A stretch of 49,187 nucleotides of DNA, from the NCBI GenBank assembly GCA_003021505.1, contig PXPT01000029.1:1-49187 (forward strand), given 5' to 3'. Made by a program: the position numbers and the translations under genes. The notes beneath the pieces are model-generated. The model was not told where the DNA came from. It did not search any database and was given only the letters and a program-made list of their open reading frames with translations. The stretch is from Cyanobacteria bacterium QS_4_48_99. Its GTDB lineage: Bacteria; Cyanobacteriota; Cyanobacteriia; Cyanobacteriales; Rubidibacteraceae. Of this stretch, positions 2,332 through 20,928 are shown one piece after another. Each line of letters opens with the position of its first letter. Position 1 is the stretch's first letter.

Positions 2332-3394
2332 ATGAAACTTGGCATCGTTACGCACAGCGTTATGAAAGGAGAAGGTCAAGGCAGAGTGAACTACGAGGTT
2401 GCTCGGGAAGCCATCCGTCGTGGTCATCACCTCGCCTTATTGGCGAGTCGGATTGCTCCAGAACTGCAACAGAGCGACCAGGTAGACTGGATTTACGTTC
2501 CAGTTAAAGGGTGGCCAACAGCATTTCTCCGTAATCTAGTTTTCTCCTGGCGGAGTGCAAATTGGTTGCGTAAACACCGCTGTGAGCTTGACCTTGTCAA
2601 GGTTAACGGGGCAATAACTAAAGCACCGGGAGATATCAACGCCGTGCATTTTGTTCACAGTTCCTGGCTGCGATCACCAGTACACATTTCTCGGGTACGT
2701 CAAGATTGGTATGGTGCTTACCAGTGGCTCTTCACTGCTTTAAAAGGTTAAAAAGGAACTGACCGACATCGGCGTTCCGAAAGAAAGCATTCGAGTCATC
2801 ACAAATGGTGTTGACTTACAGGAATTTTCACCGGGGATTGCTGACCGGAAAAAATTAAATCTTCCTGAAGGAGTACCAATCGCACTTTTTGCTGGGGATA
2901 TTCGGACACCTCGCAAGAACTTAGATACGGTGCTGCATGCCTTAGTCCAAGTTCCGGATTTACACCTAGCGATTGTTGGTACGACTGAAGGTAGTCCGTA
3001 TCTTCAGCTTGCTGAAAAGCTGGGTTTGAGTGAACGGGCACACTTTTTAGGGTATCGGCGTGACATTGCCGAGATTATGCAAGCAGTGGATTTATTTGTT
3101 TTCCCGTCACGTTACGAACCCTACGGACTTGTCTTGTTGGAAGCAATGGCTTCCGGGCTACCAGTCATTACTGCCACCACAACAGGTGCTGCTGAGATCA
3201 TTACGCCAGCATCTGGTCTAGTCATGCCCGACTCAGAAGATACCCAGGCTTTGGTACAGGCACTAAACACGCTTGCAAGTAACCCCGAACAGAGAGTTCG
3301 CATGGGCAAGGCTAGCCGAACTGTAGCAGAGCAGCATAGCTGGACTAGTATGGCGCAAAGTTATGTGGATTTATGCGAGGAAATGGTCAAATAA
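2332..3394 (+). pseudogene. GT4-family glycosyltransferase, split by deletion and frameshift
   Basis: The N-terminal part (2332-2751, 139 residues, starting MKLGIVTHSVMKGEGQGRVN) stops at TAA 2749-2751. The same protein resumes in the next frame from codon 2744 (KVKKELTDIGVPKESIRV) and runs to 3394, with the donor-site motif EPYGLVLLEAMASGLPVITA. In relatives a linker of roughly 20-30 residues joins the two halves. It is missing here, so the lesion appears to be a small deletion plus a frame change and not one miscalled base. The downstream fragment could only be made by reinitiation and would lack the acceptor domain. The next gene overlaps the stop by one base (TAATG), so the operon layout is otherwise intact. 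Confidence 0.75.
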
Positions 3395-14994: not shown

Positions 14995-15300
14995 ATGGCA
15001 AAACCAAACAAAGTTTCCAACTATTCCATAATCAGACCTACTCAGGATCAGGTTTCTTCTGACCTGGCTGGAGAGGCGGTAATTCTCCATCTCAACTCTG
15101 GCGTTTATTATGGGGTGAATGAAGTAGGGGCTCGGATCTGGAATTCAATCCAACAGCAAAAAACAGTGAATGATCTCCAGGGAATGCTTTTAGAAGAGTA
15201 TGAAGTGGAGCCTGAGCAACTGCGTAGCGACACCCTACCCTTACTCCAACAATTGGCAGCCGAAGGGCTAATTGAGGTCAAAAATGAAGCGAATCCGTAA
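14995..15300 (+). CDS. PqqD-like RiPP recognition protein (lasso B1)
   Basis: This 101-residue protein belongs to the PqqD fold, the RiPP recognition element of lasso peptide systems. It holds the precursor's leader and presents it to the B2 peptidase. The text is typical: DLAGEAVILHLNSGVYYGVN, then GARIWNSIQ, then a helical C-terminus ending LLQQLAAEGLIEV. It is a free-standing B1 and not a B1-B2 fusion. The next gene starts inside its last codons at 15284, so the two are translationally coupled. With the cyclase and the leader-motif precursor downstream, the assignment to a lasso-type locus is firm. Confidence 0.88.
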   Translation: MAKPNKVSNYSIIRPTQDQVSSDLAGEAVILHLNSGVYYGVNEVGARIWNSIQQQKTVNDLQGMLLEEYEVEPEQLRSDTLPLLQQLAAEGLIEVKNEANP

Positions 15301-15729
15301 GTTTTTCTACCAGAGTAAGAGCGATCGCCAACTTCTGCTCATTACCTTCATCTTACTAGGAATAATCCGGTTCGGGCTATGGTTACTGCCATTCCCCACC
15401 TTTCGGCGAGTCTTGGCAATAATTAATAAAGTGACTTCTCAGCAGCAGAAAGTAGAGCAATCCTCCAAAAAAAAATTGTCTGGGCGGTCAACGCGAGCAG
15501 TTACTATCTACCTGGTCGCGTGAAATGTCTCGCTCGCGCCTTGGCGACACAAATTCTTTTGAGTCGATGTGGTTATCCATCCCATCTCCGCTTCGGCATT
15601 GTTAAAGAAAAAGAAGGGCATCTACAAGCTCATGCCTGGGTGGAAAGTCAGGAAGAAGTCGTCATGGGCGATCTTAGGAACTTATCCGAGTTCACTCCAT
15701 TACCATCGCTGGAAGGAGGCAGACTGTGA
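15284..15729 (+). pseudogene. lasso B2 leader peptidase (transglutaminase-like), frameshifted at A9
   Basis: B2 is the cysteine protease that removes the leader from a lasso precursor. The N-terminal part (MKRIRKFFYQSKSDRQ, then a hydrophobic LLLITFILLGIIRFGLWLL) starts at ATG 15284 and leaves frame at an A9 run (15467-15475). The text continues one frame over from codon 15475 (IVWAVNASSYYLPGRVKCLA) to TGA 15727-15729. The catalytic triad lies wholly downstream: Cys in VKCLARAL, His in LQAHAWVE and Asp in VMGDLRN. With one more A the joined protein would be about 149 residues, the normal B2 length, with no other lesion. This could be a true mutation, a sequencing error, or transcriptional slippage on A9. 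Confidence 0.8.
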
Positions 15730-17747
15730 GCGGCATCGTAGGTATTCACTACTTCGACGGTCGGTCTGTAGAGCGTACAGACCTTAAGGAGATGGTGGAT
15801 GTTCTTGCTCACCGGGGACCAGACGGCTCAGATATCTGGAGCGAAGGCTCTGTAGGTGTAGGGCATTGCATGCTGTGGACAACGCCTGAATCGCTTGTTG
15901 AGAAGTTACCTCTGGTTAGTCAAACCGGCGATTTGGTAATTACTGCTGATGCCCGGATTGATAATCGGGATGAACTTCTCCCGGCACTAGGACTTGACAA
16001 TGGAATACCTGAAAAAATTACTGATAGCCAACTCATCCTTGCTGCTTACCAACAATGGGGAGAGCAATGCCCAGAGCAACTCTTGGGGGACTTTGCGTTT
16101 GCCATCTGGGACAAAAGTAAGCAAACCTTTTTCTGCGCTCGGGATCATCTAGGCGTTAAGCCATTCTACTATTATTCGTCCCACCAAGCTTTCGTTTTCG
16201 CCTCCGAAATGAAAGCCCTTCTTAGCGTGTCCGAAATCTCACCTCGCCTCAACGAGGTCAGAATGGGCGACTACTTAACAATGATGATGGAAGACCAATC
16301 TATCACCATCTATAAAAGCATCCTACGGCTTCCGCCTGCCCATAGCATGAGCGTGAGCCAGTCTGGAGTGCAGTTGTGGGCATATTGGTGCCTAGACCCT
16401 GAGCGCGAGCTTCAGTTGGACAGCGATGAAGCTTATGCTAAGGCATTTCGCGAAATCTTTACGAAGGCAGTACGCTGCCGCCTACGTAGTGCTCTGCCTG
16501 TGGGTTCCCAGTTGAGCGGTGGACTCGATTCTTCTTCAGTTACCTGTGTCGCCCGGAAATTACTCGCTCAGGCAGGAAATACGCCACTACATACTGTTTC
16601 AAACATTTTTGAAGACCTCCCTGAATGTGACGAGCAACCTTTCATTAACACCGTCCTTGCTCAAGGAGAAATGATTCCTCACTACGTGCATGCCGACCAA
16701 CTCAGTCCCTTGTCGGAGCTAGACCAGATTTGGCAGTACGAGGATGAAGCCTTGATTGCTCCCAACCATTTCCTCTCCTGGGGGCTGAACCGCGCCGCAC
16801 AGCAGGCAGGTATTCGAGTCTTTCTTGACGGCTTTGATGGTGACACTGCGGTATCTCATGGTGGGGTGAGGTTCGCGGAGCTAGCACGCCAACAAGAGTG
16901 GGAAAGCTTTGCTCGGGAAGCTAAGGCAATTTCGGCACACTTCCCTATCTCGCCCCAAATGTTGCTGAACAGCTACGGTGTTGTGCCCCTACAAGGATTG
17001 GCAAAGCAAGCCCGCTGGGTGGCTTTTGCTAAAGCCGTGCATCAGCTCCACAAGCATTTGGATATCTCGCGCAGGCACTTGTTGATCAAACATGGCTTAA
17101 AAGCATTAGTTCCGAAACGGATGCGCCAGATTAGGCGGCGGCTGCGCCGAGGCAGAAGTGGAAAACCGACTAGCCCCGTTAGCCCTCTTGTCAACCCCAG
17201 CTTTGCTCAGCGCATCAGTTTGGCTGAGCGTATTAATATGCTAGGTAGGCACTCAGAGCAACCAACAACCGCTAGAGCGGATCACTGGCAAGCCTTAACA
17301 ACCGGTCTGATAGCATTTGCCCTGGAACAATTAGACCAATATGCGGCAGCCTTTTCCCTAGAAGCTCGCCATCCCTTTATGGATAAGCGGCTGATTGAAT
17401 TTTGTCTAGCATTGCCCTCTGAGCAGAAGTTGTATCAAGGGTGGAGCCGGATGGTACTGCGCCGCGCTCTAGCAGACGTTCTGCCAGAGACAATTCAGTG
17501 GCGCGGGGGAAAAACGACTATGACACCGAATTTTCAACGCGGACTACTGAAATTCGACCACGAGCTTCTCGATCAGGTGGTTTTCCAGCGATCGCAGCAG
17601 ATGGAAAAATACGTCAATCTACATTTTCTGCGAAAAACTTATCAACAAGTCCAATCAGGAGAAAAGCTCCATGATCCAGATATAATGGTACTTTGGCGGG
17701 CGATCACTATAGCGCTATGGCTGAACCGCAACCAGGTAACATCATAA
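15726..17747 (+). CDS. asparagine-synthetase-like lasso cyclase (C protein)
   Basis: The start is GTG 15726, overlapping the B2 stop. The 673-residue protein has the two domains of class B asparagine synthetase. The N-terminal glutaminase-like domain begins MSGIVGIHYFDG: the catalytic Cys that should follow the initiator Met is Ser, so no ammonia can be released from glutamine. The synthetase domain has the intact PPi loop SGGLDSSS (about residues 263-270) and ELARRQEW and MDKRLIEFCLALP segments. This combination is that of lasso cyclases, which adenylate an Asp/Glu side chain and close an isopeptide ring with the core's first residue. The next gene is the precursor, 114 bp downstream. Confidence 0.88.
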   Translation: MSGIVGIHYFDGRSVERTDLKEMVDVLAHRGPDGSDIWSEGSVGVGHCMLWTTPESLVEKLPLVSQTGDLVITADARIDNRDELLPALGLDNGIPEKITDSQLILAAYQQWGEQCPEQLLGDFAFAIWDKSKQTFFCARDHLGVKPFYYYSSHQAFVFASEMKALLSVSEISPRLNEVRMGDYLTMMMEDQSITIYKSILRLPPAHSMSVSQSGVQLWAYWCLDPERELQLDSDEAYAKAFREIFTKAVRCRLRSALPVGSQLSGGLDSSSVTCVARKLLAQAGNTPLHTVSNIFEDLPECDEQPFINTVLAQGEMIPHYVHADQLSPLSELDQIWQYEDEALIAPNHFLSWGLNRAAQQAGIRVFLDGFDGDTAVSHGGVRFAELARQQEWESFAREAKAISAHFPISPQMLLNSYGVVPLQGLAKQARWVAFAKAVHQLHKHLDISRRHLLIKHGLKALVPKRMRQIRRRLRRGRSGKPTSPVSPLVNPSFAQRISLAERINMLGRHSEQPTTARADHWQALTTGLIAFALEQLDQYAAAFSLEARHPFMDKRLIEFCLALPSEQKLYQGWSRMVLRRALADVLPETIQWRGGKTTMTPNFQRGLLKFDHELLDQVVFQRSQQMEKYVNLHFLRKTYQQVQSGEKLHDPDIMVLWRAITIALWLNRNQVTS

Positions 17748-17861
17748 GTCTCACTACGCAAGTTGGGCAGATTCTGAACTGGTCTATAACCTTGACATTA
17801 CGCCCAAATCCAACCATTTCAATCGCGGGAGATTCAAACTAAACAAACAGATAATCAAAAA

Positions 17862-18074
17862 ATGAAAAAGCCTTACAAAACACCAAAACTAACTATCCAC
17901 GGTAATATTGAGAACCTTACCCAGGGACCATTTAGTATGGGTGAATCCAGCGATACTAGTTTCTTTGGTGGTCAGAGTTTCACCCCATCAATACCAGAGG
18001 CAAATAAACTGCATGATGGTGGCCATAACAGCTCGTTCGACTTTGAGAAAAGCGATCTCGACTTGGGTAATTAG
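17862..18074 (+). CDS. lasso-type RiPP precursor with an unusually long C-terminal part
   Basis: The 70-residue peptide has the canonical lasso leader motif Y5-x2-P8-x-L10-x3-G14-x4-L19-T20, with Thr20 in the penultimate-leader position. Cleavage after Gln21 would leave a core starting at Gly22 (GPFSMGESSDTSFFGG). The only acidic residue at ring distance is Glu28, core position 7. Asp31 would be position 10, outside the usual 7-9. The remaining core is 49 residues, more than twice that of characterised lasso peptides, and is rich in Gly, Ser, Phe and Asp. Either it is trimmed further, or the product is not a conventional lasso. The position directly after the cyclase supports a real gene. Confidence 0.85.
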   Translation: MKKPYKTPKLTIHGNIENLTQGPFSMGESSDTSFFGGQSFTPSIPEANKLHDGGHNSSFDFEKSDLDLGN

Positions 18075-18162
18075 TAAGCAATTGCTTACTAAAAATTACC
18101 ACGGAAAGTTTTTCGGTGGCAGATGGCTCTTCTCGTAAATGCCCCTTCTAGGAAGTAGAAGC

Positions 18163-19056
18163 ATGTACGTCTATACTGCCAACAATCTCTGCATTCACTC
18201 TGAAATTTGTTTACCCGAACTTGTAGTCTCGGAAGGAACCCCAGAGATTGTTATACGCTTAGGAAAGCTCCACAATCTCCCCCAGGAGAGTAGCGGCAGG
18301 GGCAACCGCTTTCTCGGCGAATTGAGGGGAGTGGGAAGATTCTTGATTGAGGGCGGACGAGAAATTGTCGTCGAACCTATTTCTGGGATAGACGAGTCGA
18401 TGCTGCGCCCCAGCATCCTCGGACCCGCTATGTCAGTGGTGCTACGGCAGCGAGGACTGCTAGTTCTCCATGCCAGCAGCGTCGCGATTAATCATACCGC
18501 TGTTGCTTTTTTAGGCAGCTCGGGATGGGGAAAGTCAACCATAGCCCAAACATTCCATGCCCAAGGTTATGACATCTTAACGGATGACGTTATGGCTGTG
18601 GAAACAAGTCGCCCTCATCCCATTGTATTTCCTGGCTTTCCCCAACTCAAACTTTCCCCAGAAGCAGCAGCTTCGATGGGAGGCGACTCCAAATGCCTAT
18701 CTCCTCTCTTTCCTAACGCAGAGAAACTGTCCTACGCTTTTACAGGCGGTTTTCAGAACACTCCCCTGCCGCTTGAGCGGATTTATGTGCTTGCCAATGG
18801 CACTTACCACGATATTGCCCAATTGCCTCCCCAGGCTGCCTTTACTGAGCTAGTCCGTCATACCCGAGCAGTTCATCTGCTCAAAGCTCCCGAGTTTATC
18901 CATTCCCATCTGCGCCAGTGCAGCAGCCTGATTAGAAATGTATCCTCCTGTCGCTTGAGTAGGCAAATTTCTCTGGAGGCACTCCCAGAACTGGTGAAGC
19001 TAGTTAAGGAAGACCTTGCCAACACTGCTAGTTGCGAAACTCAATTTCGTGCTTAA
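18163..19056 (+). CDS. HPr-kinase-like protein of the RiPP locus
   Basis: I chose ATG 18163 because GGAAG lies seven bases upstream and the family starts with MYxYxAxxLxIHSE, as here (MYVYTANNLCIHSEICLPEL). An ATG at 18139 would add eight residues. The protein has the P-loop GSSGWGKST (about residues 118-126), a preceding LHASSV strand, and DILTDDVM as the Walker-B-like segment. Homologues in lasso clusters such as that of paeninodin phosphorylate a serine near the end of the precursor. This precursor has serines at 57, 58 and 64, so a similar modification is possible here but not shown. Confidence 0.75.
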   Translation: MYVYTANNLCIHSEICLPELVVSEGTPEIVIRLGKLHNLPQESSGRGNRFLGELRGVGRFLIEGGREIVVEPISGIDESMLRPSILGPAMSVVLRQRGLLVLHASSVAINHTAVAFLGSSGWGKSTIAQTFHAQGYDILTDDVMAVETSRPHPIVFPGFPQLKLSPEAAASMGGDSKCLSPLFPNAEKLSYAFTGGFQNTPLPLERIYVLANGTYHDIAQLPPQAAFTELVRHTRAVHLLKAPEFIHSHLRQCSSLIRNVSSCRLSRQISLEALPELVKLVKEDLANTASCETQFRA

Positions 19057-19472
19057 AAAAGTTCAGTCGAATTTCTCTAAATTGTTAGCTATGAAACCTC
19101 TTGGTATTGGGAAGAAAATGCCTCTATCGTTTACTGACAATAAGGACTTCAATCCATTTCCATTCGTTAGCTTTGAAAACTTTGATGTGTGCTTTAGTGC
19201 CATTGGAGTTGAACTTAATACACTGATTTTTGTAGAGACAAGGAAAATTAAAAACTGTCTCCGCCAGAAAGGTAAGAGTAGAGTTTGCAGATCATGTCTC
19301 TAAGTTCTTTTGGAAATCTTATTTTTGGTCGAAATCTTATGCAGTTAGTATTGCAGCGGGTTCTGTCCCTTAGAAAATGATTACTTATATCCAAAACCAA
19401 AAAGGGTAATACCAATTTTATATAGTTGCGACAGAAATATTTGGCTGGGGGAATGGGAAAAGGGAAAAGGCG
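19057..19472. other. 416-bp region without a recognisable gene
   Basis: It lies between the kinase-like gene and the exporter remnant, where the N-terminal membrane domain of an ABC exporter would be expected. I could not find exporter text here in any frame, so the 5' part of that gene appears to be deleted and not merely frameshifted. A 95-codon ORF at 19016-19303 overlaps the kinase gene and has no recognisable features. Confidence 0.4.
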
Positions 19473-19690
19473 ATGATTCTTTGCTGGGAAACGGTTTCCT
19501 GGCGACTCAGCGATGGCGAATGGCAACGCCTTGCCCTGGCACAAGCATTTCTGCGACTCATGCGCGATGGTGAGATTTGTGCCTCAGGTAGCCATAAACA
19601 ACTGCTCAAGTCAAGAGAGGGAGTCTTTATGCTCAGTCCTGGCAAGCACAAATGCAAGCCGACTCAAACTCGCTAGTTCACTTTGCCTAA
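19473..19690 (+). pseudogene. ABC exporter remnant (lasso D protein)
   Basis: Codons from about 19505 read RLSDGEWQRLALAQAFLR, the ABC signature region (LSGGE-type) of an exporter nucleotide-binding domain. This runs straight into LMRDGEICASGSHKQLLKSR, which in intact proteins lies about 40-50 residues later, so Walker B and the H-loop are deleted. A one-base shift near 19629 then gives YAQSWQAQMQADSNSLVHFA in another frame, the typical C-terminus, ending at TAA 19688-19690. All transmembrane helices and Walker A are gone. The position between the kinase-like and nucleotidyltransferase genes is where lasso clusters carry the exporter. Confidence 0.75.
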
Positions 19691-19710
19691 CAAACTAGAT
19701 TCAACCGCCT

Positions 19711-20928
19711 GTGAGAACGCCGCCAACTAACACTGGCTCGGAAATTCAACTACTTCTCTGCTGTGCCCACGCTCACCTAGACACCGCAACGGCAGAGCGC
19801 ATTAAAGCCTTACTTCAGCAAGATATTGATTGGATATATCTCATCGAGATAGCGTCCCAACACGAAGTAGTATCGCTCCTATACCAGAGCCTCAATGCTA
19901 CCAGCCCAGAAGCCGTTCCCGAAGCTATTCTCAATCAGCTCCGAAAGTGCTTTCATGCCAACGCCCAGCATACGCTATTCTCAACCAGGGAACTGCTCAA
20001 ACTCCTCAATCTGTTCGATTCCCACAACATTTCCGCTATCCCGTTCAAGGGTCCAATTCTTGCTGCTTCCGCCTACGACAACTTAGCATTACGGCAGTTT
20101 TGCGACTTAGACATTCTCATAGACGAGTCAGACACATCAAAAGCCACAGACTTGCTTCTTTCTCAAGGATACGAGCCACCGAGCCAGCTTGCTGAGGCAC
20201 AGAAAAGACCTTACCTTCAATGCGAGCGATTTATGGAATCTGGTCCATACCAAGGCTCTTACAACTTGGTTCGCAAGGACAGAAAAGTAGCTGTGGAGCT
20301 TCACTGGTCGCTCACTAAGAAGGATTTCCCTTTCCCCATTGATTTCAAGCATTTGTGGCAAAACACTCAGCCAGTTTCCCTCGCAGGCACAAGCGTCCTT
20401 CAATTCTCGCCAGAGGATTTGCTTTTGTTCCTGTGCATGCACGGCTCCAAGCACTGCTGGTCAGAGTTGAAATGGCTCTGCGATGTCGCCGAAGTAATCC
20501 ACACTTATCCAGAAATTGATTGGGAGCAACTTAGCCAACGAGCTAAGGTTTTAGGTAGCGATCGCATGCTCTGGCTCGGTCTTTTTCTTGCCCGTGAACT
20601 GCTAGGAGTAACTCTTCCAGAGGCAGTTCTGTCTAGGATGCAGGCAGACACTGAGGCAAAATCTCTTGCTGGGCAGGTGCGCGAGCGGATTTTTGAAAGA
20701 CCGCCTACCGAGATGGAAAAGCACCTCTTCCTTTTAAGAGCAAGGGAAAGTCCCCAGGACAAGCTCCGCTACCTTCTCGGTCTTACCTTTACTCCCACCG
20801 CCAAAGAATGGGAAACTTTTCCGCTGCCTAAGTCTCTCTATTTTGCCTACCATTTCATCCGACCAATCCGATTGATGAGCGAGTTGGGCTGGCACGCAAT
20901 GGAAGACCGTGCGAAAAACTCTTTTTGA
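19711..20928 (+). CDS. nucleotidyltransferase-family protein of the RiPP locus
   Basis: The start is GTG 19711, 20 bp after the exporter remnant. The 405-residue protein matches the uncharacterised nucleotidyltransferase family NTP_transf_5: AIPFKGPILAASAYDNLALR, then FCDLDILID with the metal-binding D-x-D at residues 132-134, then VELHWSL and FSPEDLLLFLCMHGSKHCW. Such proteins recur beside lasso-type clusters with HPr-kinase-like partners, and may transfer a nucleotide or act on the phosphorylated peptide. The catalytic motif looks intact although its neighbours are damaged. Confidence 0.78.
   Translation: MRTPPTNTGSEIQLLLCCAHAHLDTATAERIKALLQQDIDWIYLIEIASQHEVVSLLYQSLNATSPEAVPEAILNQLRKCFHANAQHTLFSTRELLKLLNLFDSHNISAIPFKGPILAASAYDNLALRQFCDLDILIDESDTSKATDLLLSQGYEPPSQLAEAQKRPYLQCERFMESGPYQGSYNLVRKDRKVAVELHWSLTKKDFPFPIDFKHLWQNTQPVSLAGTSVLQFSPEDLLLFLCMHGSKHCWSELKWLCDVAEVIHTYPEIDWEQLSQRAKVLGSDRMLWLGLFLARELLGVTLPEAVLSRMQADTEAKSLAGQVRERIFERPPTEMEKHLFLLRARESPQDKLRYLLGLTFTPTAKEWETFPLPKSLYFAYHFIRPIRLMSELGWHAMEDRAKNSF

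Follow-up and report, generated by a model that had tools for sequence, protein, structure and literature searches.

The gene cluster at positions 14,995 to 20,928 of contig PXPT01000029.1 from Cyanobacteria bacterium QS_4_48_99 (the window, 49,187 nucleotides, is the whole stretch of DNA analysed here) raises the question of what a lasso peptide pathway could make from a precursor whose predicted core is 49 residues long. The initial annotation had treated this core as atypical and had proposed a product closed between Gly1 and Glu7, of a class not well described in cyanobacteria. The features of the locus are as follows.

14995..15300, + strand: B1, a PqqD-like RiPP recognition element of 101 amino acids (Pfam PqqD, 5.7e-20; NF033536, 70.6 bits, cut-off 80)
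15284..15523, + strand: N-terminal half of the B2 leader peptidase, its frame closed by a stop (NF033537, 28.5 bits, profile positions 2-67)
15467..15475, + strand: run of nine A at the B2 frame break (read from the sequence)
15478..15729, + strand: C-terminal half of B2, out of frame with the N-terminal half and carrying the KC...AHAW residues (ORF 15520-15729: NF033537, 66.9 bits; Transglut_core3, 1.1e-18)
15726..17747, + strand: lasso cyclase, isopeptide-bond-forming and asparagine-synthetase-like, 673 amino acids, open (NF033535, 1043 bits, cut-off 525)
17862..18074, + strand: precursor A, 70 amino acids, with a leader of 21 residues (17862-17924) and a core of 49 (17925-18071) (NF033528, 35.3 bits, cut-off 33, leader only)
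17943..17945, + strand: core E7, the ring acid first proposed, not conserved (conservation count)
17952..17954, + strand: core D10, aligned with the conserved Asp of the family (alignments)
18033..18035, + strand: core S37, the Ser of S-F-D, in the column of the family's tail Ser (alignment)
18139..19056, + strand: HPr-kinase-like lasso precursor kinase, 305 amino acids, with H111, K132, D149 and D150 (motif alignment)
19506..19681, + strand: relic of an ABC exporter, signature region and C-terminal end in two frames with an internal deletion (tblastn with homologous exporters)
19711..20928, + strand: NTP_transf_5 nucleotidyltransferase, 405 amino acids (PF14907, 1.3e-69)

Judged by its gene content the locus is a genuine lasso-type cluster, as first annotated. 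The gene matches exceed chance: the cyclase and the precursor both pass curated family cut-offs, the former by a wide margin and the latter in a match to NF033528 (‘lasso_cyano’) that covers only positions 1-21 of the 35 in the profile. B1 matches the general Pfam PqqD family but falls short of the lasso-specific cut-off. The cyclase, free of cysteine as had been noted and beginning SGIVGI, resembles a hydroxyamidotransferase, asparagine synthetases and, weakly, a beta-lactam synthetase amongst solved structures; the same comparison with the kinase returned nothing credible, the top rows being antibody chains that we take as chance. In an alignment of 54 kinases (window included) every sequence keeps the H and K of the kinase motif and the second of its two D residues, and 53 have the first D as well. 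No frame is broken in the genes for the cyclase, the kinase or the nucleotidyltransferase. The gene order originally given holds for B1, cyclase, precursor, kinase and nucleotidyltransferase and fails at B2, which is not one gene but two frames. The leader carries the motif Y5-x2-P8-x-L10-x3-G14-x4-L19-T20 as described, and the core length of 49 residues, counted from the Thr at -2, is also right. The window precursor was the single match in a precursor profile search of its own genome. Cyclases above the NF033535 cut-off occur in 27 of 388 sampled genomes of the class and 32 of 388 of the order; a plasmid search for the cyclase gave three distant matches, none cyanobacterial by name.

To set the core in context we gathered precursors by the leader pattern alone from 83 loci and the window, obtaining 125 hits, 109 of them distinct with the window included. 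Dropped before any count were L001-L006 (the window's own genome or a weak hit), six loci from other phyla or unclassified sources (L065-L067, L069-L071), frames of at least 170 residues and precursors of fewer than 40 or more than 110 residues. The precursors are credited to 71 loci besides the window, each with a distinct one; eight more loci repeat a precursor credited elsewhere, L095 has none, and the precursors of L016, L053 and L054 escaped the pattern and lie outside the counts. These last comprise two distinct sequences, one with a core of 35 residues and the other with a core of 33; each carries Gly3, Asp9 and GS-x-[DN].

The cores of the 108 other precursors run from 23 to 58 residues with a median of 41; 90 have at least 30 residues and 15 at least 49. 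Reduction to a non-redundant set (below 75% identity) left 79 representatives, 62 of them long (30-58 residues, median 42, 13 with at least 49) and 17 short (23-28 residues). Long-core precursors were found in many cyanobacterial families, and NF033528 recognises each of the 16 members of a hand-chosen alignment (A1) with an E-value no higher than 0.01. In a quick cyclase tree of uncertain root, the 14 short-core rows can be accounted for by two changes, compared with a mean of 13.1 in shuffled data (none of 500 shuffles as low). The window falls in a supported set of 37 rows that contains 28 long-core cyclases, eight without an assigned core (six with a precursor credited elsewhere, two with a long-core precursor missed by the pattern) and no short-core cyclase. 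The cyclases with cores of 23-28 residues (L017, L020, L023-L026, L085, L087, L088 and L090-L094) cluster on this tree. In four loci from Moorena and the same family (L034, L035, L037 and L074), a single cyclase gene is followed by a tandem array of three to five precursors, whose leaders are almost the same and whose ring residues differ. On these comparisons a long core is the rule within the cyanobacterial family, being long only against characterised lasso peptides, and the description of the window core as atypical has to be corrected.

The same relatives bear on the ring. Thr stands at -2 in 108 of 108 precursors, a count that is informative only in that Ser, the other residue allowed by the pattern at the leader end, never occurs; the core start is thus well anchored. 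Asp is found at core position 9 in 93 of the 108 (56 of the 62 long representatives) and Gly at position 3 in 86. Residue 1 of the long representatives is most often Ala (25), followed by Val (10), Ile (7) and Phe (7). A nine-residue ring from a residue other than Gly has a precedent, since the published core sequences of paeninodin and pseudomycoidin begin with Ala and have Asp at position 9 (PMC12427821).

The window core departs from this pattern. It lacks Gly3, its only acid at positions 7-9 is E7, and the next acid is D10, which MAFFT places on the conserved Asp in both alignments, the core having one extra residue. A macrolactam of seven residues joining G1 to E7, with a tail of 42 residues, would make use of the sole acid at ring distance, and seven-residue rings exist; a ring closed on D10 would need ten residues, outside the range of 7-9 given for lasso peptides (PMC8498205). 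E7 was therefore correctly singled out as the only acid at 7-9. It is not conserved, however: in none of the 79 representatives is position 7 the only acidic one of positions 7-9, only seven have Gly1, and it is D10 rather than E7 that aligns with the family's Asp. With Gly22 and Glu28 of the precursor so poorly matched in its homologues, which the initial annotation had itself named as evidence against its proposal, we consider the G1-E7 product improbable. Three of the 62 long relatives share with the window an Asp at position 10 and no acid at 7-9. The ring chemistry of the window copy may involve either a shifted cleavage or the use of E7, or else the core is degenerate.

Leave-one-out profiles locate the divergence in the core. 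The window leader ranks 20 of 63 and is ordinary, whereas the whole core ranks 60, core positions 1-20 rank 55 and leader plus core 58; the whole cores of three relatives score no higher than that of the window. A search of 378 genomes of the class for a close relative of the window core matched only its own genome at E 0.01, the sole other match of the whole precursor in nine genomes of the family was weak (E 0.56), and a search of its own genome found no second precursor elsewhere.

Beyond the ring, the tails of the long cores share a conserved motif. Past position 15, 45 of the 62 contain [GDN]S.[DN], compared with a mean of 7.5 and a maximum of 16 in 1000 shuffles, and 54 contain the looser S.[DN] (shuffled mean 23.1, maximum 34). 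In the 45 cores with the strict motif, 4-27 residues follow its last occurrence. The window core has the looser form only (S-F-D, with Ser before it). A C-terminal Ser, as in paeninodin, is present in 14 of 17 short representatives and in five of 62 long ones; in alignment A1 the serines of the short and long cores share one invariant column with the window's S37. Of the long cores, 38 are free of Cys and 24 have exactly two, with none having a single Cys, and in 21 of the 24 both follow the first S.[DNS] beyond position 15. We attach no probability to this pattern, the sequences being related, but it suggests a tail disulfide in the members with a Cys pair.

From this conservation we infer that the tail Ser is the target of the kinase and nucleotidyltransferase. 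Precedents for the acceptor weigh against this: the paeninodin kinase acts on a C-terminal Ser (PMC9266682, PMC8498205) and BsfK phosphorylates core Ser3 (PMC10368454). No demonstrated case of an acceptor Ser deep in a tail was found in the available text of the literature consulted. Trimming might also first shorten the long tail so that it ends at this Ser. The window core ends in Asn and so offers no C-terminal Ser acceptor, its nearest counterpart being the internal S37.

A long phosphopeptide of another RiPP class is also conceivable. The LPP family combines a separate recognition element, an HprK-like kinase, an NTP transferase and an MsbA-like pump with a core of 45 residues, and thus has a core length and a tailoring set comparable with those seen here. 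Its clusters are, however, described with an SpI-type leader peptidase (PMC13381572, as far as its available text goes), whereas the window has a lasso cyclase above its cut-off and both halves of a B2, and its relatives show the pattern of Thr at -2 and Asp at 9. We regard a non-lasso product as very improbable.

Two lesions overlooked in the initial annotation bear on whether the pathway still works. The first is in B2, the N-terminal half of which (from 15284) and C-terminal half (from 15478) flank the run of nine A in different frames. Both halves match NF033537, yet there is no single intact B2 gene at the locus, and a whole-genome search did not find a second B2. By contrast, the gene is open across the break point in 74 of 74 homologues (matched by the C-terminal half, with no stop in that frame over at least the 50 preceding codons), a set that includes near-duplicates and a few non-cyanobacterial loci. 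A programmed frameshift is rejected as a conserved feature, since none of the 74 breaks there. The function of the window's B2 copy is doubtful on this evidence; its descent from the lasso family is nevertheless clear.

The second lesion is in the exporter. In tblastn searches with homologous exporters only 19506-19681 still matches well: a signature region, with LSDGE in place of LSGG(E/Q), is followed by the deletion of about 52 ATPase residues and then by the C-terminal end in a second frame. Amongst 32 named cyanobacterial loci searched in the same way, an ABC exporter is present in 30, the kinase in 31 and the nucleotidyltransferase in 22, with the order kinase-exporter-nucleotidyltransferase in 20; an earlier motif-based count (18 of 32 in order) had missed diverged pumps and is superseded. 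The two without an exporter are L036, on a contig of 4.2 kb, and the Acaryochloris locus L054 (2820-4991), which resembles the window in that no exporter separates its adjacent kinase and nucleotidyltransferase genes. Given L054, loss of the exporter alone need not kill the pathway.

The cluster could still be functional if the B2 break were an assembly error or if slippage on the A run restored the frame, and if a generic ABC pump exported the product. A run of nine A is a classic spot for assembly error or transcriptional slippage, and the break lies exactly in the only such run on the + strand of the window, the other long runs on that strand being one of nine T, two of eight A and one of seven G. 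The other genes are open and the C-terminal half of B2 retains its C and H regions. Elsewhere in the window an A-rich site, near 2740-2751, likewise divides a glycosyltransferase gene (2332-3394) between frames, as expected of an error-prone assembly. On the other hand, homopolymer error cannot account for the deletion and frame change in the exporter relic, the B2 homologues give no sign of a conserved programmed shift, and the window core is amongst the most divergent. We consider a working cluster possible but rather unlikely, and infer that the B2 break exists in the genome and did not arise in assembly.

Our preferred reading, to which we give a probability of about 0.65, is that the window holds a decaying member of the known cyanobacterial long-core lasso family defined by NF033528 and NF033535: the sole B2 is split, the exporter is a scrap, and the core has drifted, with Gly3 lost and the Asp displaced to position 10. 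Gene identities, the frame break in the assembly, the exporter relic and the conservation within the family are direct observations; the biochemical steps set out below are argued from homology. Because the cyclase, kinase and nucleotidyltransferase keep open frames and conserved motifs, any decay must be recent or partial. The divergent core is no proof of it, since three of the 62 long relatives have Asp10 and no acid at 7-9, and three cores score equally low or lower. With the locus probably being lost, this strain holds little promise for mass spectrometry.

The family is of more interest than the window copy. In intact relatives, B1 would bind the YxxPxL leader, and a tailoring pair of the paeninodin/pseudomycoidin kind (HPr-like kinase and nucleotidyltransferase) would modify a Ser, most likely that of the tail Ser-x-Asp. 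B2 would then be expected to cleave after the residue that follows the last Thr of the leader, leaving Thr at -2, the cyclase to link the new N-terminus to the Asp at core 9, and an ABC pump to export the product. It is tempting to suggest, albeit tentatively, that cyanobacteria make unusually large lasso peptides, with an Asp9-closed ring built from a residue 1 that is mostly not Gly, an internal Ser-x-Asp modified by the kinase and nucleotidyltransferase, 4-27 residues beyond it and, in 24 of 62, one Cys pair; to this group the window would belong as a decaying outlier. The tail may either be trimmed or remain long and exposed. If the suggestion is correct and the tails stay whole, most of these products, at 30-58 residues, would be larger than any lasso peptide that we found described, the longest of those being pandonodin at 33 residues (PMC13352647, PMC12427821). 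The fixed position of the ring acid, the conserved tail Ser-x-Asp and the presence of no Cys or a pair yield testable predictions of ring size, phosphorylation site and tail trimming.

Cyanobacterial lasso clusters have been reported by genome mining in Roseofilum, by authors who call lasso peptides underexplored in cyanobacteria (PMC9967302), in Cyanocohniella (PMC9332814) and in Chlorogloeopsis (PMC11392904). A term search of the available text of four lasso reviews (PMC9266682, PMC8498205, PMC12427821 and, from 2026, PMC13352647) found no mention of cyanobacteria, and no isolated cyanobacterial lasso product was amongst the matches listed in the open-licence literature, which excludes most subscription papers. 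To call the class not well described is thus fair for its products but not for the family, which already has NCBIfam models and a predicted peptide (PMC9332814).

Within the NF033528/NF033535 family (lasso_cyano and lass_lactam_cya) the window shares leader, cyclase, gene order and long core, and differs in having a core with Asp at 10 but neither Gly3 nor Asp9, a split B2 and a lost exporter. Another member is that of Cyanocohniella sp. LLY (L053), for which a cleaved peptide of 36 residues has been predicted (PMC9332814); counted from the Thr at -2 its core has 35 residues, with Gly1, Gly3, Asp9 and GSID, and unlike the window it has an open B2 and an exporter. Paeninodin and pseudomycoidin resemble the window in having an HPr-like kinase beside the lasso genes, with a nucleotidyltransferase in pseudomycoidin (PMC9266682), and their printed cores start with Ala and carry Asp9 like many cyanobacterial cores (PMC12427821); those cores, however, are 23-24 residues long with the modified Ser as last residue, whereas 57 of the 62 long cyanobacterial cores do not end in Ser. 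The bsf cluster of Bradymonas sediminis likewise encodes B1, B2, C, an exporter, a kinase and a nucleotidyltransferase (PMC10368454), but there the kinase targets Ser3 and the leader has Ile at -2, positions at which the cyanobacterial precursors have Gly (86 of 108) and Thr. Pandonodin also has a long tail, with a Cys pair in it as in 24 of the 62 long cyanobacterial cores, although its 33 residues in all (PMC13352647) compare with 49 in the window core, which has no Cys.
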